DNA of 64,000 nucleotides, from positions 5,332,001 through 5,396,000 of the forward strand of contig NZ_PJMW01000002.1 in the NCBI RefSeq assembly GCF_002846365.1, read 5' to 3'. Every line of letters begins with the position of its first letter. Position 1 is the first letter of the stretch. This stretch comes from Nocardia fluminea. Its GTDB lineage: Bacteria > Actinomycetota > Actinomycetes > Mycobacteriales > Mycobacteriaceae. The translations under genes and the position numbers were made by a program. Below the pieces are notes generated by a model. It saw only the letters and a program-made list of their open reading frames with translations. It made no database searches and was not told the origin of the DNA. This document shows, one piece after another, positions 1,842 to 60,264 of the stretch.

Positions 1842-1859
1842 GTACCCATCGTACGGGTT
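1842..1859 (+). promoter_or_regulatory. Degenerate copy of the window-wide operator, before TetR 1
   Basis: GTACCCATCGTACGGGTT fits the reverse form of the shared 18-bp motif in its centre (CGTACGG) but has CCC/GGG arms instead of ACCG/CGGT. It lies about 18 bp upstream of the TetR 1 start, a position suited to autoregulation. It is the weakest member of the set. Confidence 0.5.
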
Positions 1860-1877
1860 TTCCGAGACGGAGATGCA

Positions 1878-2540
1878 ATGACACAAGGTGTGAGCGCGGG
1901 GCGACGAGATCAGATCTTCGAGGTCTTCACCCGCCATGTCGCCGCCCGCGGCTACGATCACGCCAACCTGTCCGACATCGCCGGTGAGCTCGGCACGTCG
2001 AAGGGCACGATCGTTCACCACTTCGGCGTCAAGGCCCAGCTGATGCGCGAACTCGAAGAGACCTACATGCGCCGCCAGATCTCCGCGTTGCAAGCGATCT
2101 GGGTGCAGTTGACCACTCCGGCGGAACGTGTGGCATCAATGATCTACGCCTCCACTCTCCTGCACGTGGTCGACCGTGACGCGACGGTCGCCACTCAGCG
2201 CGAGGTGCTCCAGCTCGCCCAGGATCCCGAGATGCAGGATATCCGGCGTCTGCGCAGGCATTGTCAGTCCATGGTCACGGATGAGCTGAAGCGAGGCGTG
2301 GCCACTGGCGCGTTTCGTCCGGTCGACGTCGAACTGGGGACGCTGCAGATCTTCGGGTCCTTGCAGTGGATGTGGACCTGGTTCGATCCCGACGGCCCCC
2401 GTACATGGGACCAGGTCGGCGCGGCGTTCGTCGACGTGATGCTCGGCGGCCTGCTCGCCGACCGTTTCAGCCTTCCCCAACTGGTCGACAGGGAGGGCCG
2501 CGTCGTCAAAGCGGTGCGCGAAGTTTTCAGCGCCGGCTGA
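1878..2540 (+). CDS. TetR-family regulator 1 of three paralogues
   Basis: 220-residue TetR-type repressor. The N-terminal helix-turn-helix reads LSDIAGELGTSKGTIVHHFG at about residues 34-53, and the rest is the ligand-binding helical domain. The same TIVHHFG recognition helix and the C-terminal VDVMLGGLLADRF block recur in the regulators at 35285 and 58684, so the three are paralogues, with this one the most divergent. The ATG at 1878 follows GAGACGGAG at 1863-1871. A variant operator lies just upstream. Probably an acyl-CoA or lipid-derived ligand controls it, by analogy with KstR-type regulators, but no ligand can be read from the sequence. Confidence 0.92.
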   Translation: MTQGVSAGRRDQIFEVFTRHVAARGYDHANLSDIAGELGTSKGTIVHHFGVKAQLMRELEETYMRRQISALQAIWVQLTTPAERVASMIYASTLLHVVDRDATVATQREVLQLAQDPEMQDIRRLRRHCQSMVTDELKRGVATGAFRPVDVELGTLQIFGSLQWMWTWFDPDGPRTWDQVGAAFVDVMLGGLLADRFSLPQLVDREGRVVKAVREVFSAG

Positions 2541-2573
2541 ATTGATCGGACAGGGCTCTACGATGAGCCCGCA

Positions 2574-2745
2574 GAGCTGTCGGCTGCGAGCGGGACGGCC
2601 GTCTTCGTGCCGAAGTACCGACTGGCCCTGAGCACCCGTTTCCGCCGGCAGCCGACGTCGCGCTCGACGCGTACCGCGCACTCATCGCCAGTGGTGTCGC
2701 TCCCGATCGTCTTGCGCCGGCCGACGATTCGGTACGCCGCCGACG
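2574..2745 (+). pseudogene. Relic of an HSL-family esterase (alpha/beta hydrolase)
   Basis: Read from 2574 the DNA encodes ELSAASGTAVFVPKYRLA; after dropping back one base at about 2627 it continues PEHPFPPAADVALDAYRALI and then ASGVAPDRLAPADDSVRRR. This is collinear with the esterase at 57641-58618 (LSAASGMPVLVPDYRLAPE ... PDRIRLAGDSAGG). The frame break is explained by loss of one C in the GGCCCTGAG run. The nucleophile motif GDSAGG has become DDSVRR, and the regions before and after the match are missing. It is a decayed internal fragment about 170 bp long, immediately downstream of TetR 1. Confidence 0.72.
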
Positions 2746-2752
2746 CTTTCTC

Positions 2753-3060
2753 TCACTCCACCCGTGCGTCCGCAGCATGCGGGCCATCCGCGATGTCGGT
2801 GTTCGATACCGCGAGTTCGTCGAGACTCTGATACAGCCCCTGGCGACCATTCGTCAGGGGCTGTTGTTCATAGTGCCGTCTCAGATCCTCGCCGAGTCGA
2901 TACGGGTCCAGCTCGAAGTCATGTGCCGCGAACCGCTGCCGCGCACCGATCTCCTTGTTCAGGATCGTCGTCGGCGCCCGGTACGGAACCGCGAACGCCC
3001 TGGTCAATCTGATGCACCGCCCGACTTCGACACTGGACGGGTCCAGCGTGAGTAACTTTC
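2753..3060 (-). pseudogene. Possible coding relic, weak resemblance to wax ester synthase/DGAT
   Basis: The minus strand is open through most of this gap. Around 2890-3010 it reads VPYRAPTTILNKEIGARQRF followed by AAHDFELD. The APxTxLNxxIGxxRRFA pattern is reminiscent of the segment between the two halves of WS/DGAT acyltransferases. There is no convincing start codon (TTG only) or Shine-Dalgarno site, the length is far below the roughly 450-residue family size, and a terminator-like hairpin lies inside it. I treat it as a possible remnant, not a working gene. With the esterase relic it fills most of the 580-bp space between TetR 1 and the ChoD-like gene. Confidence 0.25.
2833..2864 (+). terminator. 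Rho-independent-type hairpin after TetR 1
   Basis: ACAGCCCCTG (2833-2842) pairs perfectly with CAGGGGCTGT (2855-2864) around a 12-base loop and is followed by TGTTC. It could end the TetR 1 transcript before the divergently regulated choD promoter. Confidence 0.55.
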
Positions 3061-3076
3061 CCCGTACGGACGGTCA
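3059..3076 (+). promoter_or_regulatory. Operator before the choD-like operon
   Basis: TCCCCGTACGGACGGTCA matches the shared 18-bp motif in the centre (CGTACG) and the right arm (CGGTCA); the left arm is poor. A second, one-base-shorter half-match (GGTACGTAGGTCA, 3094-3106) lies about three helical turns downstream. The AT-rich TATTGTATGCT between them (3083-3093) is a likely -10 region. Controls the gene starting at 3122. Confidence 0.7.
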
Positions 3077-3121
3077 GTTTCTATTGTATGCTCGGTACGT
3101 AGGTCAGAAAATAGGAGAAGG

Positions 3122-4816
3122 ATGAGCGCGAACCACTACGACGTGATCGTGATCGGGTCCGGATTCGGCGGGAGCGTCACCGCCCTGCGGTTGACCGAAA
3201 AGGGCTACCGAGTCGGTGTGCTCGAAGCGGGCCGCAGGTTCGCCGACGCCGAGTTCCCGCAGACGTCATGGCGGCTGCGGTCCTACCTCTGGGTGCCTCG
3301 ACTCGGGTGCTACGGCATCCTCCGAATGTCATTGCTGAAGAACACCTTCCTGGTCGCGGGAGCCGGTGTCGGCGGTGGCTCCCTTGTCTACGCGAACACC
3401 CTGTACCGGCCGCTCGAGCCCTTCTATCAGGACGAACAGTGGTCGCATATCACCGACTGGAAGGCAGAACTCGAGCCGTATCTCGATCAAGCGGAACGGA
3501 TGCTAGGGGTCGCCGAGGTACCGAGGCCGCACGAATCCGATGACATTCTTCGCAAGGTCGCCGAGGAGATGGGGCGAGCCGGCACTTACCATCCCACCCG
3601 CGTCGGCGTGCTGTTCGGCAAGCCTGGTCAATCACCCGGTGTCAAGGTTTCCGATCCCTACTTCGGTGGCGTCGGGCCCGACCGCAACACCTGTCTCGAG
3701 TGTGGTGAATGCTGCGTAGGCTGCCGTCACAACGCCAAGAACACGGTGGTCAAGAACTACCTGTATCTCGCTGAACAGGCTGGCGTGCAAGTACATCCGA
3801 TGACAACGGTCACCCGGGTCCGGCCGTTGGACGGTGGTGGCTATGCCGTTGACACCGTGCGTACAGGCGGCTTCCGCCGGGAAAGCTTCACCGCTGACCA
3901 GGTCGTGTTCGCGGCAGCCGCACTCGGCACCCAGCGGCTGCTGCACAAGATGCGCGACAACGGAGTGCTGCCCGATCTGTCCCACCGACTAGGGCACCTG
4001 ACCCGGACCAACTCCGAGGCAGTGCAGTACCCACGTTCGCTGCGCCGAGACGCCGACTTCCATCACGGCGTCGCGCTCGGCTCGTCGTTTCATCCGGACG
4101 ACGTCACCCACGTCGAGGTCGGCCGCATGGGCGGGCCGGGCAGCAACCTGCTCGGACTTACCACCACCGTGCTGGTGGATCGTGAAGAGAACCGGTCCCG
4201 GTTCGTTTCGGGGTTGCGTGAGTTGGTTCGAAACCGGCGCAAACTCTTCCGCATTCTCGACCCGCGCGGGTTTTCGGAGCAGTCCCTCGGCGTGCTCGTG
4301 ATGCAGACGACCGGGAACTCGCTGGTCACCTACACCAAGCGTGGGCTGTTCGGGCGGAGGATGACGACCCGCCCCGGACCGGGCGACCCGCCGCCGACCT
4401 GGATCCCGATCTCACACGACGTCACGCGCAGGATCGCCGAACATATGGACGGTGTGCCGAAGGGGACATGGTTCGACATGTTCGACATCCCCAGCACCGG
4501 GCACTTTCTCGGCGGCTGCCCGATCGGCGATTCCCCCGATACCGGCGTCGTCGACCCCTATCAGCGTCTCTACGGCTACCAGGGTTTGCACGTCATAGAC
4601 GGTTCGGCGATTTCGGCGAATCTCGGCGTCAACCCCTCCCTCACGATCACGGCACAGGCCGAACGCGTCATGGCGTTCTGGCCCAACAAGGGCGAACCCG
4701 ATGCCCGGCCGCCACTCGGCGCGGTTTACCGGCGAGTGCAACCTGTCGCGCCGAAGAATCCCGTCGTTCCCGTCTCGGCGCCTGCCGCCCTCCGGTTGCC
4801 GATCACACCGGTCTAG
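3122..4816 (+). CDS. choD: GMC-type FAD oxidoreductase, ChoD (cholesterol oxidase)-like
   Basis: 564 residues, close to mycobacterial ChoD (about 580). The ADP-binding Rossmann motif GSGFGGS is at residues 12-18, and the C-terminal GMC block contains IDGSAISANLGVNPSLTI. The predicted role is FAD-dependent oxidation of a sterol-like or other bulky alcohol. An odd element is a cysteine cluster at 191-201 with spacing C-x2-C-x2-C-x3-C, as in 4Fe-4S ferredoxin sites; I recall the same cluster in mycobacterial ChoD. The start is supported by TAGGAGAAGG just upstream. It is the first gene of an operon with the P450, crotonase and dehydrogenase that follow. A true cholesterol-oxidase activity is uncertain for this family. 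Confidence 0.9.
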   Translation: MSANHYDVIVIGSGFGGSVTALRLTEKGYRVGVLEAGRRFADAEFPQTSWRLRSYLWVPRLGCYGILRMSLLKNTFLVAGAGVGGGSLVYANTLYRPLEPFYQDEQWSHITDWKAELEPYLDQAERMLGVAEVPRPHESDDILRKVAEEMGRAGTYHPTRVGVLFGKPGQSPGVKVSDPYFGGVGPDRNTCLECGECCVGCRHNAKNTVVKNYLYLAEQAGVQVHPMTTVTRVRPLDGGGYAVDTVRTGGFRRESFTADQVVFAAAALGTQRLLHKMRDNGVLPDLSHRLGHLTRTNSEAVQYPRSLRRDADFHHGVALGSSFHPDDVTHVEVGRMGGPGSNLLGLTTTVLVDREENRSRFVSGLRELVRNRRKLFRILDPRGFSEQSLGVLVMQTTGNSLVTYTKRGLFGRRMTTRPGPGDPPPTWIPISHDVTRRIAEHMDGVPKGTWFDMFDIPSTGHFLGGCPIGDSPDTGVVDPYQRLYGYQGLHVIDGSAISANLGVNPSLTITAQAERVMAFWPNKGEPDARPPLGAVYRRVQPVAPKNPVVPVSAPAALRLPITPV

Positions 4817-4832
4817 TTGAAAGGATTGAAAA

Positions 4833-6065
4833 TTGAGCGAGTCGACATCCGAAGCGGTGCGGGGGGCGATCGTCGCCGACCCTGTCGCGTGGGCGGATCC
4901 AGGACAGATCGAGGACGTGTTGGCGGGCCTGCGCCGCGAGGATCCGGTCAGCTGGGTGGAAATCCCGGGCTACAACCCGTTTTGGCTGGTCACCCGCCAC
5001 GCCGACGTGATGGCAGTCGAACGTAACGCCGAGCTGTTCACCAGCGGCGAACGTGTACTGCTGCAGTCGGCGGACCAGGACGACGCGCGGCGTAACGGTC
5101 CACTGAAAAGCCTCATCGACATGGACGGCGCCGAGCACCGGACGCACCGCGCGGTGACCAACGACTGGTTCAAGCCGGGCCGCATCCGTTCCAGGGAAGA
5201 GGCGGTCACCGCGGAAGCTCGCCGTACCGTCGACGAACTGATCGAACGCGGCGGTGAGTGCGACTTCGCCGAGGTCATCGCTCAATTCCCGCTTCGGGTG
5301 GTCCTGTCGATCTTGGGCCTGCCGCCGGAGAAGTCCTCCTGGGTGCAGCAAATGACCCAGGAAGTATTCGGTGCCACTGATCCCGATATGCGGCGCGGCG
5401 GGGATCTCGGCCAGTCGTACCGCGAGACGATGCGGGAAGTGCTCACCTATTTCATGGGCCTGACGGCCGATCGGCAGAAGAACCCGAACGACGACCTCGC
5501 TTCCGTGATCGCGAACGCCGATATCGGTGAGGCCGAACGGCTTTCGTACTACGGGCTGATCGCTACCGCCGGCCATGACACCACGAGCTATTCGATCACC
5601 GGCGGCATGGCAGCCCTCCTGGAGAACCCGGATCAACTCGCCCTGCTGCGTCGCGACCCGGAAGCACTCACCGATGCGGTCGAGGAAATGCTGCGCTGGT
5701 CCTCGCCGGTCCGTGGCTTCCTTCGAACCGCCCAGCGCGACACCGAGGTCGGTGGCGTCCCGATCAAAGCCGGCCAGTCGTTGCTGCTGTCGTTCCTGTC
5801 GGCCAATCGCGACGAAGCAGCGTTCGAGGAACCGACTCGGTTCGATATCACGCGGGCCCGTAACCGCCACGTCGCGTTCGGCTTCGGCCCGCACGCCTGC
5901 CTGGGCGCTCACCTCGCCCGGCTGGAGATGAAAGTGTTCTTCACCGAATTGCTGTCCCGGATCGACGAGATCGAGCTCGCAGGCGAACCGGCGTTCGCGC
6001 AAGCGGTGATCGTCAGTGGGATCAAGCGACTTCCGGTGCGTTACAAGGAAAGGCAGACGGCATGA
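4833..6065 (+). CDS. Cytochrome P450
   Basis: 410-residue bacterial class I P450, a monooxygenase needing ferredoxin and a reductase. The I-helix oxygen-activation motif AGHDTTS lies at about 246-252 and the heme loop FGFGPHACLG has the thiolate ligand Cys356. The start is TTG at 4833, chosen because AAAGGA (4820-4825) lies 7 bases upstream and no ATG or GTG fits as well. It is 16 bp downstream of the ChoD-like gene and overlaps the next start as ATGA, so it is coexpressed. Probably hydroxylates an alkyl or isoprenoid part of the pathway substrate; the subfamily cannot be fixed by eye. Confidence 0.92.
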   Translation: MSESTSEAVRGAIVADPVAWADPGQIEDVLAGLRREDPVSWVEIPGYNPFWLVTRHADVMAVERNAELFTSGERVLLQSADQDDARRNGPLKSLIDMDGAEHRTHRAVTNDWFKPGRIRSREEAVTAEARRTVDELIERGGECDFAEVIAQFPLRVVLSILGLPPEKSSWVQQMTQEVFGATDPDMRRGGDLGQSYRETMREVLTYFMGLTADRQKNPNDDLASVIANADIGEAERLSYYGLIATAGHDTTSYSITGGMAALLENPDQLALLRRDPEALTDAVEEMLRWSSPVRGFLRTAQRDTEVGGVPIKAGQSLLLSFLSANRDEAAFEEPTRFDITRARNRHVAFGFGPHACLGAHLARLEMKVFFTELLSRIDEIELAGEPAFAQAVIVSGIKRLPVRYKERQTA

Positions 6066-6850
6066 CCGAGGAACTGGCACTGATCGAGAAGATCGGTAAC
6101 GTCGCCCTCATCACGATGAACCGCCCGCAGGCCAAGAACGCCATCAACGCCGAATTCGCCGCCGCGGTGGGCGCCGCGTTCGCGCAGGCCGAGGCCGACC
6201 CGGAGGTGCGGGTCACGGTGCTCACCGGCGCGGGCACCGCGTTCAGCGCGGGCGCCGACCTCAAGGCCGTGGCCGCGGGCGAGCCGCTGCTGCCGAAGGA
6301 GTACCACGAGAGCGGATTCGGTGGTTTCCTCCGGCTCGGCCTGCTGACCAAGCCGGTCATCGCCGCCGTCAACGGGTTCGCCCTCGGCGGCGGTACCGAG
6401 ATTGCCCTGGCCTGCGATCTCGTCGTCATCAGTGAAGCGGCCACGCTCGGTCTGCCCGAGGTCAAGCGTGGCCTGGTCGCCGCCGGCGGTGGGTTGCTGC
6501 GCCTGCCGCAGCAGATCCCGACCAAGCTCGCCATGGAGGTCGCCCTCACCGGCCTGCCGATTGACCCGGCGACCGCGCTGAGCTGGGGCCTGGTCAACCG
6601 GGTCGCGCCCGCGGACAAGGTCGTCGAGGTCGCGCTCGAGCTCGCGGCCGCCATTGCCGAGAACGCTCCGCTCGCGGTGCAGATCAGCAAGCGCGTGATC
6701 AACCGCGGGCTGGATCTGGATTCCGAAGCGCACGCCGAGCTCTGGAAGTACAACGACACCCTGGCCTACGGCAACCTCGAGAGCGAAGACGCGCGCGAGG
6801 GCGCGATGGCCTTCGTGCAGAAGCGCCCGCCGGTCTGGAAGGGCCAGTGA
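6062..6850 (+). CDS. Enoyl-CoA hydratase/isomerase (crotonase family)
   Basis: 262 residues, normal for a crotonase. The oxyanion-hole segment AGTAFSAGADLKA is at about 58-70, and both catalytic acidic positions are present: Glu in GGGTEIALACD and Glu in GLPEVKRGL. It hydrates 2-enoyl-CoA to 3-hydroxyacyl-CoA. The ATG overlaps the P450 stop as ATGA. The close paralogue at 42316-43110 shares almost all these blocks. It is placed between a P450 and an acyl-CoA dehydrogenase in the choD operon. Confidence 0.93.
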   Translation: MTEELALIEKIGNVALITMNRPQAKNAINAEFAAAVGAAFAQAEADPEVRVTVLTGAGTAFSAGADLKAVAAGEPLLPKEYHESGFGGFLRLGLLTKPVIAAVNGFALGGGTEIALACDLVVISEAATLGLPEVKRGLVAAGGGLLRLPQQIPTKLAMEVALTGLPIDPATALSWGLVNRVAPADKVVEVALELAAAIAENAPLAVQISKRVINRGLDLDSEAHAELWKYNDTLAYGNLESEDAREGAMAFVQKRPPVWKGQ

Positions 6851-6884
6851 ACGCCGCTTACATTCGAGCCGCAGGAGAACTTGC

Positions 6885-8057
6885 ATGACCCCCACCCTGA
6901 ACCTCGTTCCGACCGAGGACGAGATCGCGATCCGCGAGTCAGTCCGGGCGCTGTGCGCCAAGTTCGACGACGGCTACCCCCGGCGTAAGTTCGACGCCGG
7001 CGAGCCTGCGACGGAGCTGTGGGACGCGCTGGCCGGCGCCGGGTACACCGGCATCCTCGTCCCGCAGGAGTGGGGTGGCGGCGGTGCAGGCATGACCGAG
7101 CTCGCGATCGTGATCGAGGAAGTATTCAAGGGAACTGGCACCCTGCCCGCGGCGATGGTCGTCAGTGCCGCGGTCGCCGGTCCGCTGCTCGCCAAGCACG
7201 GCACGCAGGAGCAGAAGGAACGCTGGCTGCGCAAGATGGCCGACGGCACCTTCATGATGGCCTTCGCGATCACCGAACCCGATGCCGGTTCGAACTCGCA
7301 CGAACTGCGGACCACCCTGCGCCGCAATCCTGACGGCGGGTACCTGCTGTCAGGGCAGAAGGTCTTCATCTCGGGCGTCGAGTCCGCCGACGCGGTGCTC
7401 GTGGTCGCCCGTTTCCGTAACGACGACGGCACGCTCGGTCTGCCGACCCTGTGCGTCGTCGATGTCGATTGCGAAGGGTTCACCCGGCAGCCGATCGCGA
7501 TGCAGTTCATCGCCCCGGAACGCCAGTGGCAGCTGTTCTTCGACAACGTCCAGGTCGATGCCGATCGGCTGATCGGCGGCGAGAACGGCGGTCTCGCAGC
7601 GGTATTCGACGGCCTCAACCCCGAGCGCATCGCCGGTGCGGCGGGTTGTATCGGTATCGGCTGGCGGGCGCTCGAGAAGGCCGCTGCTTACGCCAAGGAG
7701 CGCAATGTCTGGGGTGTGCCGATCGGTCAACACCAGGGTATCGCGCACCCCCTCGCCGAAGCGAAGATCGGCCTCGAGCTGGCCGCGCTGATGACGCAGA
7801 AGGCAGCCGCACTGCAGGACGCCGGTGCCCCCGGTGCCGGTGAGACCGCCAACATCGCGAAGTACTCGGCCGCCGAGGCCGCGATCAAGGCGATCGATAC
7901 CGCAGTCCAGGTGCACGGCGGTAACGGCCTCACCTTGGAGTACGGGATTTCGGATCTGTACTGGTTCGCCCGCCTGGCCCGGATCGCCCCGGTGAGCCGC
8001 GAGATGATCCTCAACTACGTGGCGCAGCACTCCTTGAAGCTGCCGAAGTCGTACTGA
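6885..8057 (+). CDS. Acyl-CoA dehydrogenase
   Basis: 390 residues, full length for the family. The FAD/substrate motif FAITEPDAGSNS is at about 127-138 and the C-terminal QVHGGNGLTLEYG contains a Glu in a position used by some family members as the catalytic base. It performs the FAD-dependent first step of beta-oxidation. It lies 34 bp after the crotonase; CAGGAG at 6872-6877 serves the ATG. It is the last gene of the choD-P450-crotonase operon and is followed by a strong hairpin. Paralogue of the partial gene at 1-1002. Confidence 0.95.
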   Translation: MTPTLNLVPTEDEIAIRESVRALCAKFDDGYPRRKFDAGEPATELWDALAGAGYTGILVPQEWGGGGAGMTELAIVIEEVFKGTGTLPAAMVVSAAVAGPLLAKHGTQEQKERWLRKMADGTFMMAFAITEPDAGSNSHELRTTLRRNPDGGYLLSGQKVFISGVESADAVLVVARFRNDDGTLGLPTLCVVDVDCEGFTRQPIAMQFIAPERQWQLFFDNVQVDADRLIGGENGGLAAVFDGLNPERIAGAAGCIGIGWRALEKAAAYAKERNVWGVPIGQHQGIAHPLAEAKIGLELAALMTQKAAALQDAGAPGAGETANIAKYSAAEAAIKAIDTAVQVHGGNGLTLEYGISDLYWFARLARIAPVSREMILNYVAQHSLKLPKSY

Positions 8058-8066
8058 GGGGCCAAC

Positions 8067-8102
8067 GATGATTCGGGCACTGGGCACAGTGCCCGAATCA
8101 TC
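8067..8102 (+). terminator. Terminator hairpin ending the choD operon
   Basis: GATGATTCGGGCACTG (8067-8082) and CAGTGCCCGAATCATC (8087-8102) form a perfect 16-bp stem with a GGCA loop, 9 bp after the dehydrogenase stop. There is no clear U tract, as is usual in actinobacteria. The rest of 8103-8315 holds no recognisable gene or operator and is probably the fadA-fadB promoter region. Confidence 0.75.
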
Positions 8103-8315
8103 GACCTCGCCGGGGAACTGTCACGTTGCTGCCATGGCGCGGGGTGTCCACGAAACATCGGCGAGGTGCGGGAGAGGTTTCCGATCGAAGGCGTCGCCGA
8201 CGCCACTCCATACCTGTGCGCCGGTTCGGGGCGAAGATCCTCAGCCGGGGCTACTGACCCATGTCCGCTGCCCGAATCCGCGGCGGCTGGACCGACATTC
8301 CTGGAAGGCGAGTCA

Positions 8316-9527
8316 ATGACCAACGAGGCGTACATCTACGAGGCGATTCGCACGCCTCGCGGCAAGAACAAGGGCGGGGCACTGCACGCGACGAAGCCGA
8401 TCGACCTGGTCGTCGGTCTGATCGACGAGCTGCGAGCGCGCCACCCCGGGCTCGACCCCGCCGCGATCAGCGACATCGTGCTCGGCGTGGTCGGCCCGGT
8501 CTCCGACCAGGGTGGCGACATCGCTCGAGCTGCGGCGATGGGTGCCGGGCTGCCGGACACGGTCGCCGGAGTGCAGCTCAACCGGTTCTGCTCGTCGGGG
8601 CTCGAGTCGGTCAACCAGGCCGCGGCGCGGGTGCGCTCGGGCTGGGACAACCTGATCATCGCCGGCGGTGTCGAATCGATGTCACGGGTGCCGATGGGAT
8701 CCGACGGCGGGCCGATGTTCAACGACGTCGCCCTGGTCTACGACAACTTCACCGTGCCGCAGGGCATCGGCGCTGACCTGATCGCGACGATCGAGGGCTT
8801 CACGCGGACCGACTGCGACGAGTTCGCGGTGCGTTCGCAGGATCGCGCCGAGGCGGCGTGGGCGGCCGGCTACTTCGCGAAATCCGTTGTGCCGGTGAAG
8901 GATATGAACGGCGTGACGATCCTCGATCACGACGAGCATCGTCGCCCCGGCACCACGGTCGAGTCGCTCGGCAAGCTGCGTCCCGCGTTCGCCGCGATGG
9001 GCGAGCAGGCGGGGTTCGACGCGGTGGCGCTGCAGAAGTACCACTGGGTGGAGCAGATCGACCATGTGCACCACGGCGGTAATTCCTCGGGCATCGTCGA
9101 CGGCGCCGCACTAGTGCTCGTCGGTAACGAGCAGGTCGGCGAGGACCTCGGCCTCACCCCGCGTGCCCGGATCACGGCCGCGGCGATCACCGGGTCGGAC
9201 CCGACCATCATGCTGACCGGTCCTACCCCCGCCACCCGCAAGGTGCTCGATATCGCCGGGTTGACCGTCGATGACATCGACCTCTTCGAGCTCAACGAGG
9301 CCTTCGCCTCGGTCGTGCTGAAGTGGATGAAGGACCTGAAGCTGCCGGACGAGAAGGTCAACGTCAACGGTGGCGCGATCGCGATGGGGCACCCGCTGGG
9401 CGCCACCGGCGCGATGATCCTCGGCACCATGGTCGACGAGCTGGAGCGGCGAGAGGCCCGGCGTGCACTGGTGTCGCTGTGCATCGGCGGTGGTATGGGC
9501 ATCGCGACCATCATCGAGCGGGTTTGA
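8316..9527 (+). CDS. fadA: Acetyl-CoA acetyltransferase (3-ketoacyl-CoA thiolase) FadA, copy 1
   Basis: 403-residue thiolase that cleaves 3-ketoacyl-CoA to acetyl-CoA and a shortened acyl-CoA. The nucleophilic Cys92 is in NRFCSSGLE, the His in [13 protein letters not shown], and the second Cys in LCIGGGMG near the C-terminus. The ATG at 8316 is chosen over an upstream in-frame start at 8166 because the family begins with [16 protein letters not shown] and GGAAGG lies at 8303-8308. It is followed 4 bp later by fadB, together a beta-oxidation trifunctional-type pair. Copy 2 is at 23551-24762. Confidence 0.96.
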
Positions 9528-9531
9528 GAAC

Positions 9532-11688
9532 ATGACCGACACGATTCGCTGGGATCACGGCGCCGACGGCATCGTGATCCTGACGATGGACGACCCTGGC
9601 CAGTCAGTTAACACGATGAACGCCGCCTTCCAAGCGTCACTGGGCCGCGCCGTAGACCGTCTGGTAGCGGAGAAGGACACGATTCTCGGCGTGGTGATCG
9701 CCTCGGCGAAGACCTCGTTCTTCGCGGGCGGCGATTTGCGCGAGCTGATCTGGACGACGCCGGAACACGCCGCCGATCTCACCGAATCGACCATCGTGTT
9801 GAACGCGCACCTGCGCCGCCTCGAGACATTCGGCAGGCCGGTCGTCGCGGCGATCAACGGCCTCGCACTCGGCGGCGGGTTCGAGGTCGCGCTCGCGACA
9901 CACCACCGCATCGCCGCGGACGTCGACGGCGTCGTGCTCGGATCTCCCGAGGTCACCTTCGGCTTGATTCCCGGCGCCGGCGGGATCGTTCGAACGACGC
10001 GGTTACTCGGAATCCAGGGTGCGATTCGCGACGTCCTGATTCAGGGACAGCGATACACCGCAGCCAAGGCCAGGGAACTCGGTCTCGTCGACGAACTGGT
10101 GGCCGACGCGGACGACCTGGTTCCCACAGCCAAAGAGTGGATCCTGGCCAACCCCGAGGCTGTGCAGCCGTGGGACGCCAAGGGCTATCGGATTCCTGGT
10201 GGCTCGCCGTCGGATCCCGCGGTCGCGGCCCAGCTTTCCGAGCTGCCCGCCCTGCTGCGCAAGCAGGGTAAGGGTTCGCCGATGCCGGCGCCGCGCGCGA
10301 TCCTGGCCGCCGCGATGGAGGGCGCGATGGTGGACTTCGACACGGCGTCGCGCATCGAGACCAGCTACTTCGTCAGCGTCGTCACCGGTCAGATCGCCAA
10401 GAACATGACCAAGGCATTCTTCTTCGACCACAACAGAATCAAGGCCGGTGGCTCGCGGCCCGAGGGCGTCGAGAAGTACGCCGCACGCAAAGTCGGTGTG
10501 CTCGGTGCGGGGATGATGGGCGCCGCGATCGCCTACGTGAGCGCGAAGGCAGGTATCGACGTAGTCCTGAAGGACGTGTCGATCGAGAACGCGGACAAGG
10601 GAAAGGGTTACGCGGCCGAGCTCGAACAGAAGGCACTGGCGCGGGGCACGACAACGCAGGAGGCGTCGGACGCACTGCTCGCGCGGATTACACCGACTGC
10701 CGATCCCGCGGACTTCGCCGGTGTGGACTTCGTGATCGAGGCCGTATTCGAGAGCCCGGAACTCAAACACGCGGTGTTCGGCGAGATCGAGGACATCGTC
10801 GAGGCCGACGCGGTGCTCGGTTCCAACACCTCCACGCTGCCGATCACCGAACTCGCCGAGGGCGTGCGACGGCAGGAGGATTTCATCGGAATCCACTTCT
10901 TCTCACCGGTGGACAAGATGCCACTCGTGGAGATCATCCGCGGTGCGAAGACCTCGGACGCGACGCTCGCGAAGGTCTTCGACTTCGCGTTGCAGATCAA
11001 GAAGACACCAATCGTCGTCAACGACAGCCGCGGCTTCTTCACGTCGCGCGTGATCGGTACCTTCCTCAACGAGGCCGTGGCCGCTGTCGGCGAGGGCGTC
11101 GAGCCGGCGACGGTCGAACAAGCCGGTGCTCAGGCGGGCTATCCGGCGCCGCCGCTGCAGCTGGCGGACGAACTGACTCTGACGCTGCCGCGCAAGGTCC
11201 GGGAGGAGACGCGGGCCGCGGTCGAGGCCGCGGGCGGACAGTGGACCGCACACAGTTCAGAGGCAGTGATCGACCGCATGATCAATGAATTCGACCGCAG
11301 GGGCCGCTCCACGGGCTCCGGGTTCTACGAATACGTCGATGGGAAGCGCACTCGTCTGTGGCCGGGGTTGCGCACGGCATTCGGGAGCGGCAAGCAGATC
11401 TCGCTGGAGGATCTGCGCGATCGCATGTTGTTCGCCGAGGCGCTGGAGACTATCAAGTGCTTCGACGAGGGCGTGCTGAGCTCGGTGGCCGACGCCAACA
11501 TCGGCTCTCTCTTCGGCATCGGCTTCCCGGCCTGGACCGGTGGTGTCATCCAGTTCATCAATCAATACGAGGGTGGTACCCGGGGTTTCGTGGCCCGGGC
11601 CCACGAGCTGGCCGAGCGCTACGGTGACCGTTTCCTGCCGCCACAGTCTCTCGTGGAGAAGGCGAACCAGGGCGGGATCTACGAGTAG
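9532..11688 (+). CDS. fadB: FadB: enoyl-CoA hydratase / 3-hydroxyacyl-CoA dehydrogenase fusion, copy 1
   Basis: 718 residues. The crotonase domain covers about 1-190, with Glu residues in [14 protein letters not shown] and SPEVTFGL. The NAD-binding domain starts near residue 325 with [17 protein letters not shown], and the dehydrogenase signature [18 protein letters not shown] is near 450. It is the alpha-type partner of FadA. The ATG is 4 bp after the fadA stop; upstream in-frame codons overlap fadA and lack family similarity. It differs from copy 2 in the crotonase active-site loop (GGDLRELIW against GGDIKDMIL), which suggests different chain-length or branching preference. Confidence 0.95.
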
Positions 11689-33085: not shown

Positions 33086-33094
33086 TGTTGTCCT

Positions 33095-44270: not shown

Positions 44271-44341
44271 GCGGTCAGCGCCCGGAGGCGGCAGCGGAGC
44301 GTGACCACGCAGGGCGCCCGAGTATGCCCAAAGGAGACAGC

Positions 44342-44749
44342 GTGAACGACACAGCGACCTGGCCGCCGATGCGGCGTGACGCCAAGAGTGCCGAGTTCTT
44401 CGAGGCGGCGAGCCGAGGGGAACTGGCCATCAAGAAGTGCACCGACTGCGGGCGTTCGCTGGCGCCGGAGGCAATGGTGTGCACCGATTGCGGCGGAAGT
44501 GTTCCGGCGTGGACCAGCGCATCGGGCGCGGGCACGCTCATCACGTGGACGACGGTGCACAAGGCGCCCAACCCCGTGTTCGCGCCGATGGTGCCCTACA
44601 CCGTCGGCGTCGTCGAATTGGCAGAGGGGCCTTGGCTGTACGCGCGAATCACCGGCGAGCCACGGGCCGGCGCTGCGCTGCGCGCGGAATTCGTCCACCC
44701 GGCCGAGGGCGAGAGTTACCCGACGTGGGTCGTAACGAGCGGACAATGA
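44342..44749 (+). CDS. DUF35 OB-fold / zinc-ribbon partner protein
   Basis: 135 residues from GTG 44342, chosen because AAGGAG (44331-44336) is 5 bp upstream; an ATG at 44267 overlapping the thiolase stop is in frame but would add an atypical 25-residue leader. Zinc-ribbon Cys residues are in KKCTDCGRSL and VCTDCGGSV. The OB fold contains TWTTVHKAPNPVF. It probably binds the acyl-CoA and activates the adjacent Ltp2-like protein. It overlaps the ligase start as ATGA. Confidence 0.92.
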   Translation: MNDTATWPPMRRDAKSAEFFEAASRGELAIKKCTDCGRSLAPEAMVCTDCGGSVPAWTSASGAGTLITWTTVHKAPNPVFAPMVPYTVGVVELAEGPWLYARITGEPRAGAALRAEFVHPAEGESYPTWVVTSGQ

Positions 44750-47576: not shown

Positions 47577-47587
47577 GGGGAATCGCA

Positions 47588-48736
47588 ATGAGTAATCTCT
47601 GGACCACGCCAGAACGCCAGGACCTGCGAAAGATGGTCGCCGATTTCACGATCCGTGAAATCGCCCCGAACATGGACCAGTGGGAGCGCGACGGCGAGCT
47701 GCCGCGCTCGCTGCACCAGAAGGCCGGCGCGCTCGGCCTGCTCGAACTGGCGTTTCCCGAATCCGTCGGTGGTGCGGGCGATTACATCGATCTCGCCATC
47801 CTGATCGAGGAACTGATCGGCAACGGTGGCAGCCCGGGTCTGTGCGGGTCGTTGCTGACGCACACCATCGCCGCGCCGCACATCGCCACCGCGGGTGATC
47901 CCGCGCAGGTGGTCGAGTATGTGCAGCCGACCCTGCGTGGCGCGAAGATCGGTTCCCTCGCGATCACCGAGCCGGGCACCGGCTCCGATGTGGCATCCGT
48001 GCGCACCACGGCAGTGCGCGACGGCGATCACTACATCGTCAACGGCGCCAAGACCTACATCACCTCCGGGACCCGTGCCGACTACGTGACCACTGTGGTT
48101 CGCACCGGTGATTCCGGCCATCGGGGATTGTCGCTGCTGATCGTCGACACCGATACTCCTGGATTCTCCGTCGGGCGCAAGCTCGAGAAGATGGGCTGTC
48201 TGTGCTCGGACACCGCCGAACTGCACTACGACAACGTGCGTGTGCCGGTGGCGAATCTGGTCGGTGCGGAGGGAACGGCTTTCGCGCAGTTGATGACTCG
48301 CCTCGACGGTGAACGACTCAACCTGGCGGTGCAGGGGTACGCGACCGCACAGCGCGCCTTCGATCTCACTCTTCCGTGGGTGCGCGAACGTGTCACCTTC
48401 GGTGAGCCGCTGGCGAATCGGCAGGTGATCCGGCACAAGCTCGCCGAGATGGCGCGACAGATCACCGTCGCCCGGGTCTACGTGCATGATGTGCTGACCC
48501 GCTACGTCGCAGGCGAATCCCTCGGCGCCGAGGTGCCGATGGCCAAGAACACCGCGGCCGACGCTTGCGAGTACGTCGTCAACGAGGCGGTGCAGATCTT
48601 CGGCGGCATGGGATATATCCGCGAGAACGAAGTCGAGCGTCTCTTCCGCGACGGCCGCCTGCTCAGCATCGGCGGCGGCGCGACGGAGATCATGAACGAG
48701 GTCATCGCGAAGTCCTTGCCTCTCGGGACCCGTTGA
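47588..48736 (+). CDS. Acyl-CoA dehydrogenase
   Basis: 382 residues. [14 protein letters not shown] is the FAD motif. The C-terminal [14 protein letters not shown] lacks Glu at the YEGT position used by short-chain enzymes, while [10 protein letters not shown] supplies a Glu in the isovaleryl-CoA-dehydrogenase position. That suggests a branched substrate. It lies 11 bp after the P450, with its stop overlapping the next start (TGATG). Confidence 0.93.
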
Positions 48737-50544
48737 TGGGTCACTACCGGTCCAACGTCGGTGACCTCGAATTCACGCTGTTCGAGGTCTTCGGACTGGA
48801 CAAGATCCTCGCCACCGGCGCGTTCGGCGACCTCGACGGCGAGACGGTGCGCACCATGCTCACCGAGGCGGCCAAGCTGGCCGAGGGCCCGGTCGCCGAG
48901 GCGTTCGCCGACGCCGACCGCAACCCGCCGACGTTCGATCCCGCGACGCACACGGTGAGCATCCCGGAATCGTTCAAGCGGTCGCTGCGCGCTTGGCAGG
49001 ACGCCGAATGGTTCCGGGTTGGCCTGCGTGCGGAAGTGGGTGGGGTTCCCGCACCATCGATGGTGGCCTGGGCCATCACCGAATTCCTGCTCGGCGCACA
49101 GCCCGGCGTCTTCTTCTACCTGACCGGTCCCGCGTTCTCGGGCGTGCTGTACGGCATCGGCAACGAGGAACAGCAGCGGTGGGCCGAACTCGCGGTGGAG
49201 CGTGGCTGGGGCACCACTATGGTGCTGACCGAGCCCGACGCGGGCTCCGACGTCGGTGCCGCTCGGACCAAAGCGATCCCGCAGGAGGACGGTAGCTGGC
49301 ACCTCGAAGGTGTCAAGCGTTTCATCACCTCCGCGGACGCGGACGATCTCTTCGAGAACACCGTGCACCTGGTGTTGGCCCGGCCCGAAGGCGCGGGCGC
49401 GGGGACCAAGGGCTTGAGCCTGTTCTACGTCCCCAAGTTCCATTTCGACCCCGAAACGGGCGTGCTGGGCGATCGCAACGGAGTTTTCGTCACCGGCCTC
49501 GAACACAAGATGGGCCTGAAGGTTTCGGTAACGTGCGAGGTGACCCTGGGCGGGCACGGTACGCCGGCCAAGGGTTGGCTGGTCGGCGACACCCACAACG
49601 GCATCGCGCAGATGTTCCAGATCATCGAAACGGCCCGGATGATGGTGGGTACCAAGGCGATCGCGACGCTGTCCACCGGGTATCTCAACGCGCTGGACTA
49701 TGCCCGCAATCGCGTGCAGGGCGCGGATCTGACGGCCATGGCGGACAAGTCCGCACCCCGTGTGAGCATTTTGCGCCACCCCGATGTCCGGCGATCGCTC
49801 CTCATGCAGAAGGCATACGCCGAAGGATTGCGTGCGGTCTACCTGTTCACCGCCGCACATCAAGACATCGAAGCGGCGCGGGTCGTCTCGGGTGCCGATG
49901 CCGCGATGGCCGCTCGGGTCAACGACCTGATGCTGCCGATCGTGAAGGGTGTCGGCTCCGAACGCGCCTTCGCGATGCTCACCGAGTCGCTGCAAACCCT
50001 CGGCGGCTCGGGCTATCTGCAGGACTACCCGATCGAGCAGTATCTGCGAGACGCCAAGATCGACTCGCTCTATGAAGGCACCACCGCTATTCAGGCGCAG
50101 GACTTCTTCTTCCGGAAGATCTTGCGGGACAAGGGCGTCGCCTTCGAATTCGTGCTCGGCAAGATCACCGAGTTCGCGGCAGAGGTGCCGTTGCAGCTGG
50201 CTGCCGAAGCTGAGTCGGTGATTGGGGCGGCGGCCGATGTCCGGGCGATGGCCTCGATCATGACCGGATATGCCACCGATGCGGACCCGGCTGTGGTCTA
50301 TCGGGTCGGGCTCGGATCGGTGCGGTTTCTGATGGCTGTCGGCGACGTGGTGATCGGCTGGTTGCTGTTGCGCCAGGCGGTGGTGGCGCTGGCATCCGAC
50401 ACCGTCGATCCGGCTTACCGGTCGGGAAAGGTGGCGGTGGCGCGCTTCTTCGCTGCCGAGGTACTGCCCGGAATCGCGGTGACGCGCGGCGTTGTGGGGA
50501 GTCTCGATCATTCCGTGATGGATCTCGCTGATACGGCGTTCTGA
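48736..50544 (+). CDS. fadE5: FadE5-like long acyl-CoA dehydrogenase
   Basis: 602 residues, the size of mycobacterial FadE5 (about 611), and collinear with it from the start ([18 protein letters not shown]). The central block reads [19 protein letters not shown], and the catalytic segment [17 protein letters not shown] holds the Glu. The C-terminal extra domain (about 450-602) has [15 protein letters not shown] helices. FadE5 acts on a broad range of medium- to long-chain acyl-CoAs. It is the last gene of the operon from 42316. Confidence 0.95.
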
Positions 50545-50694: not shown

Positions 50695-50712
50695 AGACCG
50701 TACGGATGGTCA
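50695..50712 (+). promoter_or_regulatory. Distal operator before the DUF3068 gene
   Basis: AGACCGTACGGATGGTCA, one of two sites in the 363-bp gap 50545-50907. It is 78 bp upstream of the proximal site. The rest of the gap contains no gene that I can support. Confidence 0.7.
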
Positions 50713-50772: not shown

Positions 50773-50790
50773 TGCCCATCCGTACGGTCA
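50773..50790 (+). promoter_or_regulatory. Proximal operator before the DUF3068 gene
   Basis: TGCCCATCCGTACGGTCA, with a strong right half (CCGTACGGTCA) and a poor left arm. It lies 118 bp upstream of the start. With the distal site it could support looping. Confidence 0.65.
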
Positions 50791-54335: not shown

Positions 54336-54375
54336 ACCCGTACGTGCACAGATCCCTTCTCGACAAAGGATGATG

Positions 54376-54797: not shown

Positions 54798-54815
54798 TGA
54801 CTGTACGGGCGGTCA
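54798..54815 (+). promoter_or_regulatory. Operator and promoter of the alcohol dehydrogenase operon
   Basis: TGACTGTACGGGCGGTCA. TTGACT (54797-54802) forms the -35 and TATGCT 19 bp downstream (54822-54827) a -10. The start of the small ORF is at 54866. Confidence 0.82.
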
Positions 54816-56109: not shown

Positions 56110-57560
56110 CCGTGGACTACACGGCGCTGTACATCGGCGGAGCGTGGACGGCGCCGTCGTCCGATCGCCGCATCGAGGCCTTCTCGGCGAGTACCGAAGA
56201 GTTGCTCGGCAGTGTGCCCGCGGCGACGGAGACGGACGTGGACGCGGCTGTCGCCGCCGCCCGCGCCGCCTTCGACGACCCGAGGGGCTGGTCGACCTGG
56301 GCGCCCGAGCGTCGCGCCGAGGTGCTCGATCGGTTCGCCGCCGAACTCGCCGGCCGCAGCGATGAGATCGCCCGTCGTGTGAGCAGCCAGAACGGCATGC
56401 CGATCCGCTTCGCCAAGGTGGTCGAAGGCGGCGTTCCCGGCGCAATGCTGCGGTACTACGCAGATCTCGTGCGCACTCATCCCGAATTCGAGGTTCGGCC
56501 GTCCTTGGTGGTGGGGTCGACCGAGGTGCGCCGGGACCCGATCGGCGTGGTCGGGGCGATCGTGCCGTGGAACTTTCCGCAGACTCTGGCCTTCTTCAAA
56601 CTGGCTCCCGCCTTGGCCGCGGGATGCACGGTGGTGATGAAGCCGTCCTCGGAGACCGTTCTCGACGCGATGATGATCGCTGAGGCCGCTGCGGCCGCTG
56701 AGCTGCCTGCCGGTGTCCTGAACATTGTGCCGGGGGCGGGCCGCACGGCCGGCGCCCATCTGGTCGCCCATCCAGGCGTGGACAAGATCGCGTTCACCGG
56801 CTCCACCGACGCCGGACGGTCCATCGCGGAAACGTGCGGCCGCCTGCTCAGGCCGGTGACACTGGAGCTCGGCGGCAAGTCCGCGGCGATCATCCTCGAC
56901 GATGCGGATCTGGCGACCACCCTGCAGGGCCTGTTCGCAGTGAGCCTGATGAATCAGGGGCAGAGCTGCTACATCTGCACCAGGATCCTGGCTCCGCGTG
57001 GCCGCTACAGCGAGATCGTCGACGGTCTCAGCGACCTGGTGCGCACCCTGCGCATCGGTGATCCGCTGGATCGGTCGACCGTGATCGGACCGCTCGCGAC
57101 TGCCCGCCAGCGCGACATTGTCGAAAGCTATATCGCCAAGGGGCTGGCCGAAGGCGGCCGAATCACCGTCGGCGGCTCGCGGCCGGCCGGATTCGACCGC
57201 GGCTGGTATGTCGAACCGACCGTCTTCGCCGACGTGAGCAACGATGCCACCATCGCCCGCGAGGAAATCTTCGGCCCCGTGCTGTCGGTCATTCCGTTCG
57301 ACGACGACGAGGACGCGCTGCACATGGCCAACGACTCCGCGTACGGACTCGGCGGCACGGTGTGGACCACTGATCTCGAACGCGGAGCCGCCCTGGCCCG
57401 CCGGGTTCAGACCGGCAGCATCGGCGTGAACGGCTACACGATGGATCACGGCGCGCCTTTCGGCGGTGTCAAGGACAGCGGGCTCGGCCGTGAACTCGGT
57501 CCGGAAGGCCTGTCGGCGTATCAGCAATACAAGTCGGTGTATCTTCCGCGCAGCTCTTGA
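56106..57560 (+). CDS. Aldehyde dehydrogenase
   Basis: 484 residues. Catalytic Cys288 is in NQGQSCYICTRI, Glu254 in LELGGKSA, the cofactor site is PWNFPQ at 154-159 and FTGSTDAG at 230-237. It oxidises the aldehyde from the adjacent alcohol dehydrogenase to a carboxylate, which a FadD could activate. ATGA overlap with the alcohol dehydrogenase. Its own stop codon lies inside the next operator. Confidence 0.95.
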   Translation: MTVDYTALYIGGAWTAPSSDRRIEAFSASTEELLGSVPAATETDVDAAVAAARAAFDDPRGWSTWAPERRAEVLDRFAAELAGRSDEIARRVSSQNGMPIRFAKVVEGGVPGAMLRYYADLVRTHPEFEVRPSLVVGSTEVRRDPIGVVGAIVPWNFPQTLAFFKLAPALAAGCTVVMKPSSETVLDAMMIAEAAAAAELPAGVLNIVPGAGRTAGAHLVAHPGVDKIAFTGSTDAGRSIAETCGRLLRPVTLELGGKSAAIILDDADLATTLQGLFAVSLMNQGQSCYICTRILAPRGRYSEIVDGLSDLVRTLRIGDPLDRSTVIGPLATARQRDIVESYIAKGLAEGGRITVGGSRPAGFDRGWYVEPTVFADVSNDATIAREEIFGPVLSVIPFDDDEDALHMANDSAYGLGGTVWTTDLERGAALARRVQTGSIGVNGYTMDHGAPFGGVKDSGLGRELGPEGLSAYQQYKSVYLPRSS

Positions 57561-57575
57561 CCGTTCGTACGGTCA
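57558..57575 (+). promoter_or_regulatory. Operator overlapping the aldehyde dehydrogenase stop codon
   Basis: TGACCGTTCGTACGGTCA with perfect arms; its first three bases are the stop codon. TTGACC (57557-57562) and ATATTC (57581-57586), 18 bp apart, could give a promoter for the esterase. Confidence 0.8.
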
Positions 57576-58646: not shown

Positions 58647-58664
58647 AGACCGTTCGTACGGTTA
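58647..58664 (+). promoter_or_regulatory. Operator before TetR 3
   Basis: AGACCGTTCGTACGGTTA lies 20 bp upstream of the GTG start of TetR 3. TAGTAT at 58641-58646 is a possible -10 just upstream of it, so the repressor would sit on the transcription start. Indicates autoregulation. Confidence 0.78.
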
Positions 58665-58683
58665 GCAAAGTATGGGAGAGCCT

Positions 58684-59349
58684 GTGGCCAGACCAGCCGG
58701 GAGGCGCACAGAAATCCTCGAAACCTTCATTCGGCACGTCGCTGAACAGGGCTACGAGCGGACCAATCTCGGTGATATCGCCAAAGAGCTCGATATGTCC
58801 AAGGGAACGATAGTTCACCATTTCGGCACCAAAGCGCAGATGCTGCGCGAGCTCGAAGAGAATTACATGAAGCACGAGCTCGACGCGGTGCGTTCCCTCT
58901 GGGAGCAATTGGACAAGCCGCAGGAGCGCATTGCCGCGATCGTTTTCGCCTCCACTCTGCTGCAGGTGGTGGCTCGGGACGCGACGGTGGCGAGTCAACG
59001 CGAGGTAGTGCAGCTCTCTGACGATCCAGCCATGCAAGAGGTTCGGAAACTCCGCCGGGAACTGCAACGGATGACCGAGGACGAGCTGCGGCGCGGTATC
59101 GAAGAAGGTACGTTCCGGCCGGTCGATGTCGAAGTGGTCACCTTGCAGCTGTGGGGTTCGGTCCAGTGGATGTTCGTGTGGTTCCAGCCGGGGCGGCGCC
59201 ATACTCCGGAGGAAATCGGATCGACGTTCGTCGACATCCTGCTCGGCGGACTTCTCGTTGACCGGTTCGGTCTCGCCCCGCTGGCGGACCCGAACGGCGA
59301 GATCGCCACCGTCGTTCGTGAGACCTTCGAGGCTCACGCCGCGCAATGA
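58684..59349 (+). CDS. TetR-family regulator 3 of three paralogues
   Basis: 221 residues from GTG 58684 (MARPAGRRTEILETFIRH), with GGGAGAG at 58674-58680 as in TetR 2; an ATG at 58672 is in frame but lacks a ribosome site. The helix-turn-helix LGDIAKELDMSKGTIVHHFG is almost the same as in TetR 2, and so is most of the ligand domain. With an operator in its own promoter, it is a strong candidate for the regulator of the whole set. TetR 2 and 3 must differ in ligand or affinity if both are functional. Confidence 0.94.
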   Translation: MARPAGRRTEILETFIRHVAEQGYERTNLGDIAKELDMSKGTIVHHFGTKAQMLRELEENYMKHELDAVRSLWEQLDKPQERIAAIVFASTLLQVVARDATVASQREVVQLSDDPAMQEVRKLRRELQRMTEDELRRGIEEGTFRPVDVEVVTLQLWGSVQWMFVWFQPGRRHTPEEIGSTFVDILLGGLLVDRFGLAPLADPNGEIATVVRETFEAHAAQ

Positions 59350-59410
59350 ACGCATCGGTGGACGGTCGGCAGGGGTCGGCTGCGCTCGTTGAGAGGTCGG
59401 TCTTCCCACA

Positions 59411-60064
59411 ATGAACGACAGCGAGGCTTCCGGACGCGCCGCGACGGGGCGTGCGCCAGGTCGGACCATCCCGCGGACGAAACGCGGCGAGCGGAAACGC
59501 GCGGCTTTGGTCGCGGCGGCGCGCGAGATCTTCGAGCGGGATGGCTATCTCGATGCGAGGATCGCCGATATCTCAGAGGCCGCGGGAGCGGCTTCGGGGT
59601 CTTTCTACACCTATTTCGATGGTAAAGACGACGTGTTCGCTGCACTGGTGGAGCAAGCGCGCCAAGAGATGCTGCATCCACATATCCGAGAACGTACTGG
59701 GGTCGCGGACCCGCGCCAGCTGATCTATGCCGCGAATCGAGAGTACCTACTCGCCTACGAGAAGAATGCCCGTTTGATGGCAGTGTTCGAAGAGGCCGAG
59801 CTCGTCAATGCCGAGTTCCGGCGTCTGCGCCTCGAACGCGCGCGTTCCTTCGTACTGCGCAACGAGAAGATGATCCGGGCTCTGCAGCAGCGGGGACAAG
59901 CGTCGGCCGACCTCGATCCCTTGGTTGCCGCACAGGCACTGTCGGCGATGGTCAGCCGGATGGCCAGCGTCGTGTTCCTACAGGGGCAGCCGATCGAGTT
60001 CGAGTCGCTGGTTACCACGCTCACACAGTTGTGGGTTAACGCACTGCAGCTGAAGCCGTCCTGA
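59411..60064 (+). CDS. TetR-family regulator, unrelated to the three paralogues
   Basis: 217 residues with a basic N-terminal arm (about 1-27) before the helix-turn-helix IADISEAAGAASGSFYTYFD (about 54-73). The recognition helix (SGSFYTYF) is different from the TIVHHFG group, so it should have another operator. It is 61 bp downstream of TetR 3, the same strand. The ATG at 59411 is used; a weak AG-rich site precedes it. Role unknown; it may control the following fadD genes. Confidence 0.92.
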   Translation: MNDSEASGRAATGRAPGRTIPRTKRGERKRAALVAAAREIFERDGYLDARIADISEAAGAASGSFYTYFDGKDDVFAALVEQARQEMLHPHIRERTGVADPRQLIYAANREYLLAYEKNARLMAVFEEAELVNAEFRRLRLERARSFVLRNEKMIRALQQRGQASADLDPLVAAQALSAMVSRMASVVFLQGQPIEFESLVTTLTQLWVNALQLKPS

Positions 60065-60151
60065 CAGCTCTTGCCTCGGCGAGATATTCGCCGGCCGAAG
60101 GTGCTGCAGCACGTCGATGTCGCTGATGGTGTGTCTTCTTCCTAGCGCGAT

Positions 60152-60169
60152 TGACCGTACGGTCGGGCA
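60152..60169 (+). promoter_or_regulatory. Distal operator before fadD
   Basis: TGACCGTACGGTCGGGCA; the centre GACCGTACGGTC (60153-60164) is itself a perfect 12-bp palindrome. It lies 95 bp upstream of the proximal site. A short CGGCGA/TCGCCG hairpin at 60077-60093 may end the preceding TetR transcript. Confidence 0.72.
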
Positions 60170-60246
60170 GTAATGGCCGCGCATTGCGGGGCTTGCTGGG
60201 CCAATCCACGCTTCGGGTCGAACGAAATTGGCGGAGCAACAAGTAT

Positions 60247-60264
60247 TGACTGTACGAGCGGTCA
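60247..60264 (+). promoter_or_regulatory. Proximal operator and promoter before fadD
   Basis: TGACTGTACGAGCGGTCA, 51 bp upstream of the start. TTGACT (60246-60251) is the -35. The -10 is less clear (CTTGTT near 60273). Confidence 0.8.

Follow-up and report, generated by a model that had tools for sequence, protein, structure and literature searches.

Results

We examined a 64,000-nucleotide stretch of the Nocardia fluminea genome (GCF_002846365.1; contig NZ_PJMW01000002.1, positions 5,332,001 to 5,396,000), here called the window and numbered from its first letter, in which an 18-bp palindrome close to TGACCGTACGTACGGTCA recurs at 15 places spanning 57 kb of lipid-breakdown and lipid-import genes, with matrix scores of 18.2–28.4. 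Matches to Pfam, NCBIfam and PDB sequences served to assign gene families, and operon limits were inferred from strand and spacing. The genes concerned include a yrbE/mce import operon of the MlaE and MlaD families (26848..34821, minus strand), an operon for an enoyl-CoA hydratase (ECH), an Ltp2-like thiolase, FadD, a CYP125-like cytochrome P450 and two acyl-CoA dehydrogenases (ACAD) (42316..50544, plus strand), and an operon for a GMC oxidase, a P450, ECH, ACAD, a thiolase and FadB (3122..11688, plus strand). Three paralogous TetR-family regulators are also encoded here, all on the plus strand: TetR1 (1878..2540), TetR2 (35273..35950) and TetR3 (58672..59349).

A search of both strands with the pattern TGACYGTACGNNCGGTCA, allowing up to three mismatches, returned 29 strand-hits, equivalent to the 15 distinct places, against a mean of 1.61 and a maximum of 7 strand-hits in 100 shuffled sequences, which bears out the view taken in the initial annotation of this DNA that so long a motif should not recur by chance in 64 kb. 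A symmetric matrix built from 14 sites, of approximately 20 bits, has TGACCG-TA-CG-TA-CGGTCA at its centre. The middle CG does not vary among the 14 sites, and a single symmetric palindrome with a central CG is the better way of writing the motif. The 18-bp layout recalls that of the Bacillus FadR site. Fourteen of the 15 sites listed in the initial annotation match the motif. The other, at 1842 before tetR1, reads GTACCCATCGTACGGGTT and was rejected, as it scores −1.1, a value that 991 flank positions equal or exceed. A looser pattern, TGACCGNNCGNNCGGTCA with two mismatches, gave 195 forward hits against 57 for its reversed control and was too loose to use.

The sites are markedly local, well beyond what chance would give. 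Across the 8.06-Mb genome, all nine places found by pattern with no or one mismatch fall inside the window, as do 14 of the 27 places with up to two mismatches, and these are exactly the 14 listed sites that match the motif; there are 33 strand-hits genome-wide, against 5 for a reversed control pattern. The genome-wide motif scan that had been proposed as a check was thus made by pattern, and the matrix scan covered the window and 200 kb on each side. In these 400 kb of flanks no position scores 18 or above (best 16.1), and with a leave-one-out matrix none scores as high as any one of the 14 sites or the additional site at 35037. A site-like sequence scoring 12.8, which lies 1.8 kb ahead of the window, was rejected because it lies inside an acyl-CoA dehydrogenase frame. 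Elsewhere in the genome a perfect palindrome, TGACCGACCGGTCGGTCA (L001:1501-1518; G000:C2:1664853), lies 16 bp before an alpha/beta-hydrolase-like frame that is followed by a TetR-like frame, both assigned by eye; it may be the own operator of that adjacent TetR-like gene.

Fourteen of the 15 places are intergenic once three open reading frame starts that we judged to be over-long (24903, 36049 and 54790) are discounted, in line with the promoter-proximal placement described initially, and the proposal that the sites precede import, activation and oxidation genes is supported by the family assignments. On the plus strand unless otherwise stated, and with the loci of relatives that carry a site at the same target given in brackets, the first site (3059..3076; score 21.0, two mismatches) precedes the operon for the GMC oxidase (choD-like), P450a, ECH, ACAD, fadA1 and fadB1, and the second (24885..24902, minus strand; 26.3, no mismatches) precedes fadA2-fadB2. 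The yrbEA-yrbEB-mce operon, which is divergent from tetR2, is preceded by a site at 34857..34874 (minus strand; 25.1, no mismatches; L140, L142, L143), and a weak operator-like site absent from the initial list lies between yrbEA and tetR2 (35037..35054; 18.2). Sites before an alpha/beta-hydrolase gene (36034..36051; 22.8; L143) and an APH-like kinase gene (37086..37103; 20.5) follow. One operator, to which no strand is assigned (40002..40019; 23.6; same place in L140 and L142), is common to a ferredoxin-reductase gene on the minus strand and a divergent pair for a short-chain dehydrogenase/reductase (SDR) and ACAD on the plus strand. The ECH–Ltp2-like–FadD–CYP125-like P450–ACAD–ACAD operon has a site at 42286..42303 (26.3; L139, L140, L143), a DUF3068/PgfA-like gene has two (50695..50712, 23.2; 50773..50790, 22.6), and the alcohol dehydrogenase–aldehyde dehydrogenase (ADH–ALDH) operon has one (54798..54815; 25.1; L139). 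The highest-scoring site precedes an esterase gene and overlaps the ALDH stop codon by three bases (57558..57575; 28.4; L143). The last three sites comprise the presumed autoregulatory operator of tetR3 (58647..58664; 22.7) and two operators before a FadD11-like fadD gene (60152..60169, 22.0; 60247..60264, 24.7). The genes at 52065-54771 have no operator.

TetR1, TetR2 and TetR3 each exceed the Pfam cut-offs for the TetR_N DNA-binding domain (PF00440) and the ligand domain PF17932 (TetR_C_24). TetR2 is 81–82% identical to TetR3, TetR1 is 56–58% identical to both, and the recognition-helix core SKGTIVHHFG is identical in all three. Among the PDB matches of TetR3, KstR2 is the best (79 bits over 187 residues) and 3vpr scores 71.5 bits; all three paralogs have 3vpr, annotated as a TetR regulator and taken here to be PfmR, among their top PDB matches. 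The initial annotation had placed sites before tetR1 and tetR3, of which only the second could be retained, and tetR3 alone among the three paralogs has a strong operator of its own. With its orthologs carrying the same operator, TetR3 is the best candidate repressor. Judged by these comparisons, TetR3 together with TetR2 is most likely the reader of the operator, and TetR1 possibly reads it too.

Homologs of TetR3 were found in 15 of 118 genomes of the genus (E 1e-20), 24 of 401 genomes of the family (1e-40) and 6 of 345 genomes of the class (1e-35), with the own genome counted each time. In all 18 outside loci with at least 55% identity to TetR3, a site scoring at least 21.6 starts 24–51 bp before the matched tetR start; these loci comprise 15 from the genus and family homolog searches (including Nocardia inohanensis, whose assignment is inferred) and those of M. 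angelicum, M. alsense and M. szulgai. The operator is identical to that of tetR3 at 18 of 18 letters in 13 of the 14 mycobacterial loci and at 17 of 18 in the 14th, and the 30-bp flanks of these operators are 13–47% identical to those of TetR3's; 11 of the 14 loci (genus g29) are placed in Mycobacterium on account of their grouping with the three named species. A second site (score at least 20.5) lies between tetR and the following yrbE-mce genes in all 14 mycobacterial loci, although these mce genes are only distantly related to those of the window. In N. inohanensis, G240, G198 and G042 (loci L139, L140, L142 and L143), sites precede homologs of several window targets, namely yrbE-mce, ECH-Ltp2, ADH-ALDH, the ferredoxin reductase/SDR pair and the hydrolase or esterase, not all in each genome. 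Exact sites without mismatches occur in four of 151 family genomes (G000, G042, G069 and G124), and the TetR is present in all four. In L126 and L127 the site lies approximately 135 bp before the matched tetR start.

Across this family, as judged by sequence comparison, a change in the recognition helix goes with a change in the operator. Helices of the SKGTIVHH type pair with sites of the CCGTACG type. Nine homologs from the same genus (L093-L101; 39–43% identical to TetR3) have no site by the matrix; all nine have SQGLIVHHYG helices and carry TGACTGCGCACTCAGTCA, which is of the TGACTGCGYACTCAGTCA type and has GCGTAC in two of the nine, at 100–112 bp before the matched start. This sequence is, on the same comparative grounds, a second operator type within the same TetR family. 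A further homolog, L125, has the helix SRGLIAHHFG and carries TGACTGCGCAGACAGTCA.

Sterol catabolism is one of the processes to which the gene content may relate, through the CYP125-like P450, the Ltp2-like thiolase and the GMC oxidase. For the P450 at 46152, the score is 454 bits against CYP125MRCA and 291 bits against the CYP125 of 3ivy, and the thiolase at 42987 matches 4u4e (Thiolase) with 232 bits and 6ok1 (Lipid-transfer protein) with 223 bits. The GMC oxidase scores 525 bits against the NCBIfam cholesterol oxidase model, which is under its cut-off of 850, and 84 bits against the cholesterol oxidase 1coy. No Rieske oxygenase or extradiol dioxygenase was found among the window frames scanned with Pfam, so the gene set looks like one for chain rather than ring breakdown. 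A steroid or sterol substrate is plausible.

Several other frames deserve mention. At 38357-39997 (minus strand), a ferredoxin domain is fused to an NAD(P)-binding reductase; this is the gene that shares its operator with the divergent SDR gene, and its product is a possible electron donor for the P450s. The APH-like kinase (37206-38270) has weak similarity to ecdysteroid kinases; a 25-hydroxysteroid kinase that has actinobacterial relatives is known from PMC8449060. The operator-free stretch at 15300-20779 (minus strand) contains, besides ECH and thiolase-like genes, two frames to which no Pfam family was assigned (17682-18737 and 19985-20779). It also contains a 396-amino-acid frame (18798-19988, minus strand) with a C-terminal MarR domain and a TetR_N-like N-terminus, which at 21.3 bits falls under the Pfam cut-off of 24.

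Discussion

We consider it very probable, from comparison of sequences, that the palindrome is the operator of a KstR2/PfmR-like TetR clade encoded in the cluster, chiefly of TetR3 and of TetR2, its near-duplicate. What the sequences show directly is a set of operators that is concentrated in the cluster, is conserved together with the TetR and covaries with the helix; binding, repression, ligand and substrate are inferred from these features. A homodimer, or two overlapping dimers, would bind the 18-bp site at the promoter, and binding would repress Mce import and ester hydrolysis, terminal oxidation (by the CYP125-like P450 with its likely electron donor, ADH and ALDH), and CoA activation with beta-oxidation or aldol-type cleavage; tetR3 itself would also be repressed. 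The operator of the mycobacterial tetR promoters comes immediately after a −10-like hexamer, TATGAT in 13 of 14 loci and TATGGT in one, and the TetR3 operator follows a similar hexamer, a position in which a bound repressor would cover the transcription start. As KstR2, the nearest named relative, is a repressor, and given this position of the operator, we take the protein to be a repressor with negative autoregulation. Promoter-like elements near the other sites vary. Release would come from a hydrophobic pathway intermediate, most likely a CoA thioester whose chain is of sterol type or otherwise methyl-branched; an acyl-CoA as ligand is suggested by analogy with KstR-type regulators.

Several observations weigh against this interpretation. 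There is no matrix site 5' of TetR1, and the resemblance upstream of tetR2 itself (35246..35263, plus strand) scores just 10.5; it lies at −27, a position corresponding to that of the tetR3 operator (−25), and we read it as a possible decayed operator. Outside the window, the genome has 13 two-mismatch places, three of which reach a score of at least 18 (21.2, 20.2 and 18.2); one of the three lies ahead of a hydrolase-like frame that has another TetR-like frame next to it. No site accompanies the genes at 11873-20779. A TANNNT hexamer follows 2–12 nucleotides downstream at only four of 16 site/target pairs (random expectation 0.012), which is no more than suggestive. In the relatives, the 55% identity threshold at which 18 of 18 loci carry a site was chosen after the data had been seen; at 50% the count is 18 of 19, with the site of G378 (53% identical to TetR3 and 57% to TetR1) scoring 16.5. 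Six homologs approximately 40–45% identical (L119-L124) carry the site 3' of the tetR gene, and two remote homologs (approximately 27%) are without a site. Of 151 family genomes, 44 have one or more hits within one mismatch, mostly just one, and the reversed control has hits in 12; as 40 of the 44 are missing from the genomes listed with a TetR3 homolog, sites of this kind may serve other proteins, which could be related TetRs. Finally, rows within a clade are related, and conservation and covariation therefore reflect few evolutionary events.

The sites could instead be operators of another regulator of the cluster, either the EthR-like TetR4 (59411) or the MarR-TetR fusion (18798). Both genes lie inside the cluster, and that of TetR4 is situated between two groups of sites, but the site accompanies the TetR3 clade in mycobacteria too, the covariation of helix and operator is seen for the TetR3 family, and no match to either protein is named in 20 loci (E 1e-10, where weaker matches overlapping better ones are not displayed); we regard this explanation as improbable. 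That the repeats have no regulatory role and represent a mobile or structural element is suggested by their many copies within one region, but can practically be dismissed, since the copies stand in unrelated surroundings and distant genomes have retained the site though its flanks have changed. It is somewhat less improbable, yet still unlikely, that the protein is not a plain repressor throughout but activates, or has a dual role, at some sites. Placement does vary, with seven of the 15 sites preceded by T and so starting a TTGAC word that resembles a −35 element, and paired sites occur before fadD and the DUF3068 gene, but the repressor function of KstR2 and the place of the operator in mycobacterial tetR promoters, right behind a −10-like hexamer, speak for repression.

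A compatible extension of assignment to TetR3 and TetR2 is that all three paralogs bind the same sites and respond to different ligands. This may be the case, though it is less likely than not: the SKGTIVHHFG core is common to the three, TetR1 is just about 57% identical to the others overall, and only tetR3 has a strong operator of its own, but an identical helix core is no proof of the same specificity, and TetR1 is a long branch that may serve its own SDR-ACAD-ACAD-ACAD-MaoC genes. The initial annotation had tied import, activation and oxidation to one signal. All operons may answer to a single signal, but since the three paralogs share the helix core and differ in the ligand half, several signals may converge on the operator. 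More speculatively still, the one operator read by three co-resident paralogs might form a multi-input switch that puts import, activation and oxidation under the control of different pathway intermediates, helix and operator of the clade might have co-evolved between CCGTACG and CTGCGCA specificity, and the 18-bp site might accommodate two dimers at a 4-bp offset, with one perfect TGACCG arm for each.

Among described systems, KstR2 is the closest named relative. Its regulon comprises 15 genes under three motifs with the 14-bp site AnCAAGnnCTTGnT, and its orthologs in other genera share more than 50% identity (PMC3068626). Like the system proposed here, KstR2 is an autoregulated TetR repressor with sites clustered around its gene (PMC3068626), and it is the best PDB match of TetR3; here, however, an 18-bp TGACCG site occurs at 15 places before import and chain-oxidation genes. 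The KstR2 box has no exact match in the window, and its six one-mismatch matches, in excess of the 0.59 expected, all lie inside genes. KstR likewise controls a large lipid-degradation regulon with autoregulation, through the site TnnAACnnGTTnnA (PMC1995591). The window is not part of the KstR regulon, because an exact search found no KstR box in it and the KstR ortholog of the genome (C2:1202650, at 1.20 Mb; 328 bits) is encoded 4.1 Mb away; TetR3 scores 21.5 bits against the KstR equivalog model, whose cut-off is 280. A P450 41% identical to that of the window lies approximately 56 kb from this KstR gene. The initial annotation, which did not recognise the motif as the KstR or KstR2 site, is supported on this point.

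The half-site is shared with PfmR (TTHB023) and SbtR of Thermus thermophilus, which bind TGACYG/CRGTCA arms in 14–16-bp sites (PMC7022988), but their arms are separated by 2 bp, whereas here 6 bp with a central CG separate them in a site of 18 bp. KstR3 of Mycolicibacterium neoaurum is a TetR repressor of sterol side-chain metabolism, encoded with ACAD and DUF35/dehydratase genes in the HBC operon (aldolase atf1, chsH4, chsE6 and kstR3; PMC10398937). TetR1 similarly follows ACAD and MaoC genes, and KstR3 is a possible relative of it; KstR3 differs in belonging to one small operon, no aldolase was found among the scanned SDR-ACAD-ACAD-ACAD-MaoC-TetR1 genes, and the words "motif" and "palindrom" are absent from the main text of PMC10398937. 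The conserved repeats of AlkU of RHA1 (PMC6921075), the Thermus FadR site (PMC5597230) and the Nocardioides Lcin1 motif (PMC7593942) differ from this operator and were set aside, and the parts of PMC6262395 examined contain no site sequence for QsdR. Literature searches met no description of this operator, and a search for four 10-mers of the site, judged by title on the 20 listed of 68 matching papers, gave none on this system, although a match is possible among the mycobacterial TetR motifs of PMC4482099, which are images. PMC1810536 provides context for mce operons.

Conclusion

The comparative evidence supports a predicted regulon that is new and of an already known kind. For Nocardia, it would represent a KstR-independent regulon for chain-type lipid catabolism in which the predicted regulator, operator and targets can all be named. 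The matched changes of helix and operator between sister clades provide a natural test set for TetR specificity, and the TetR/operator pairs found before an mce operon in all 14 mycobacterial loci are candidates for the control of that Mce transporter.

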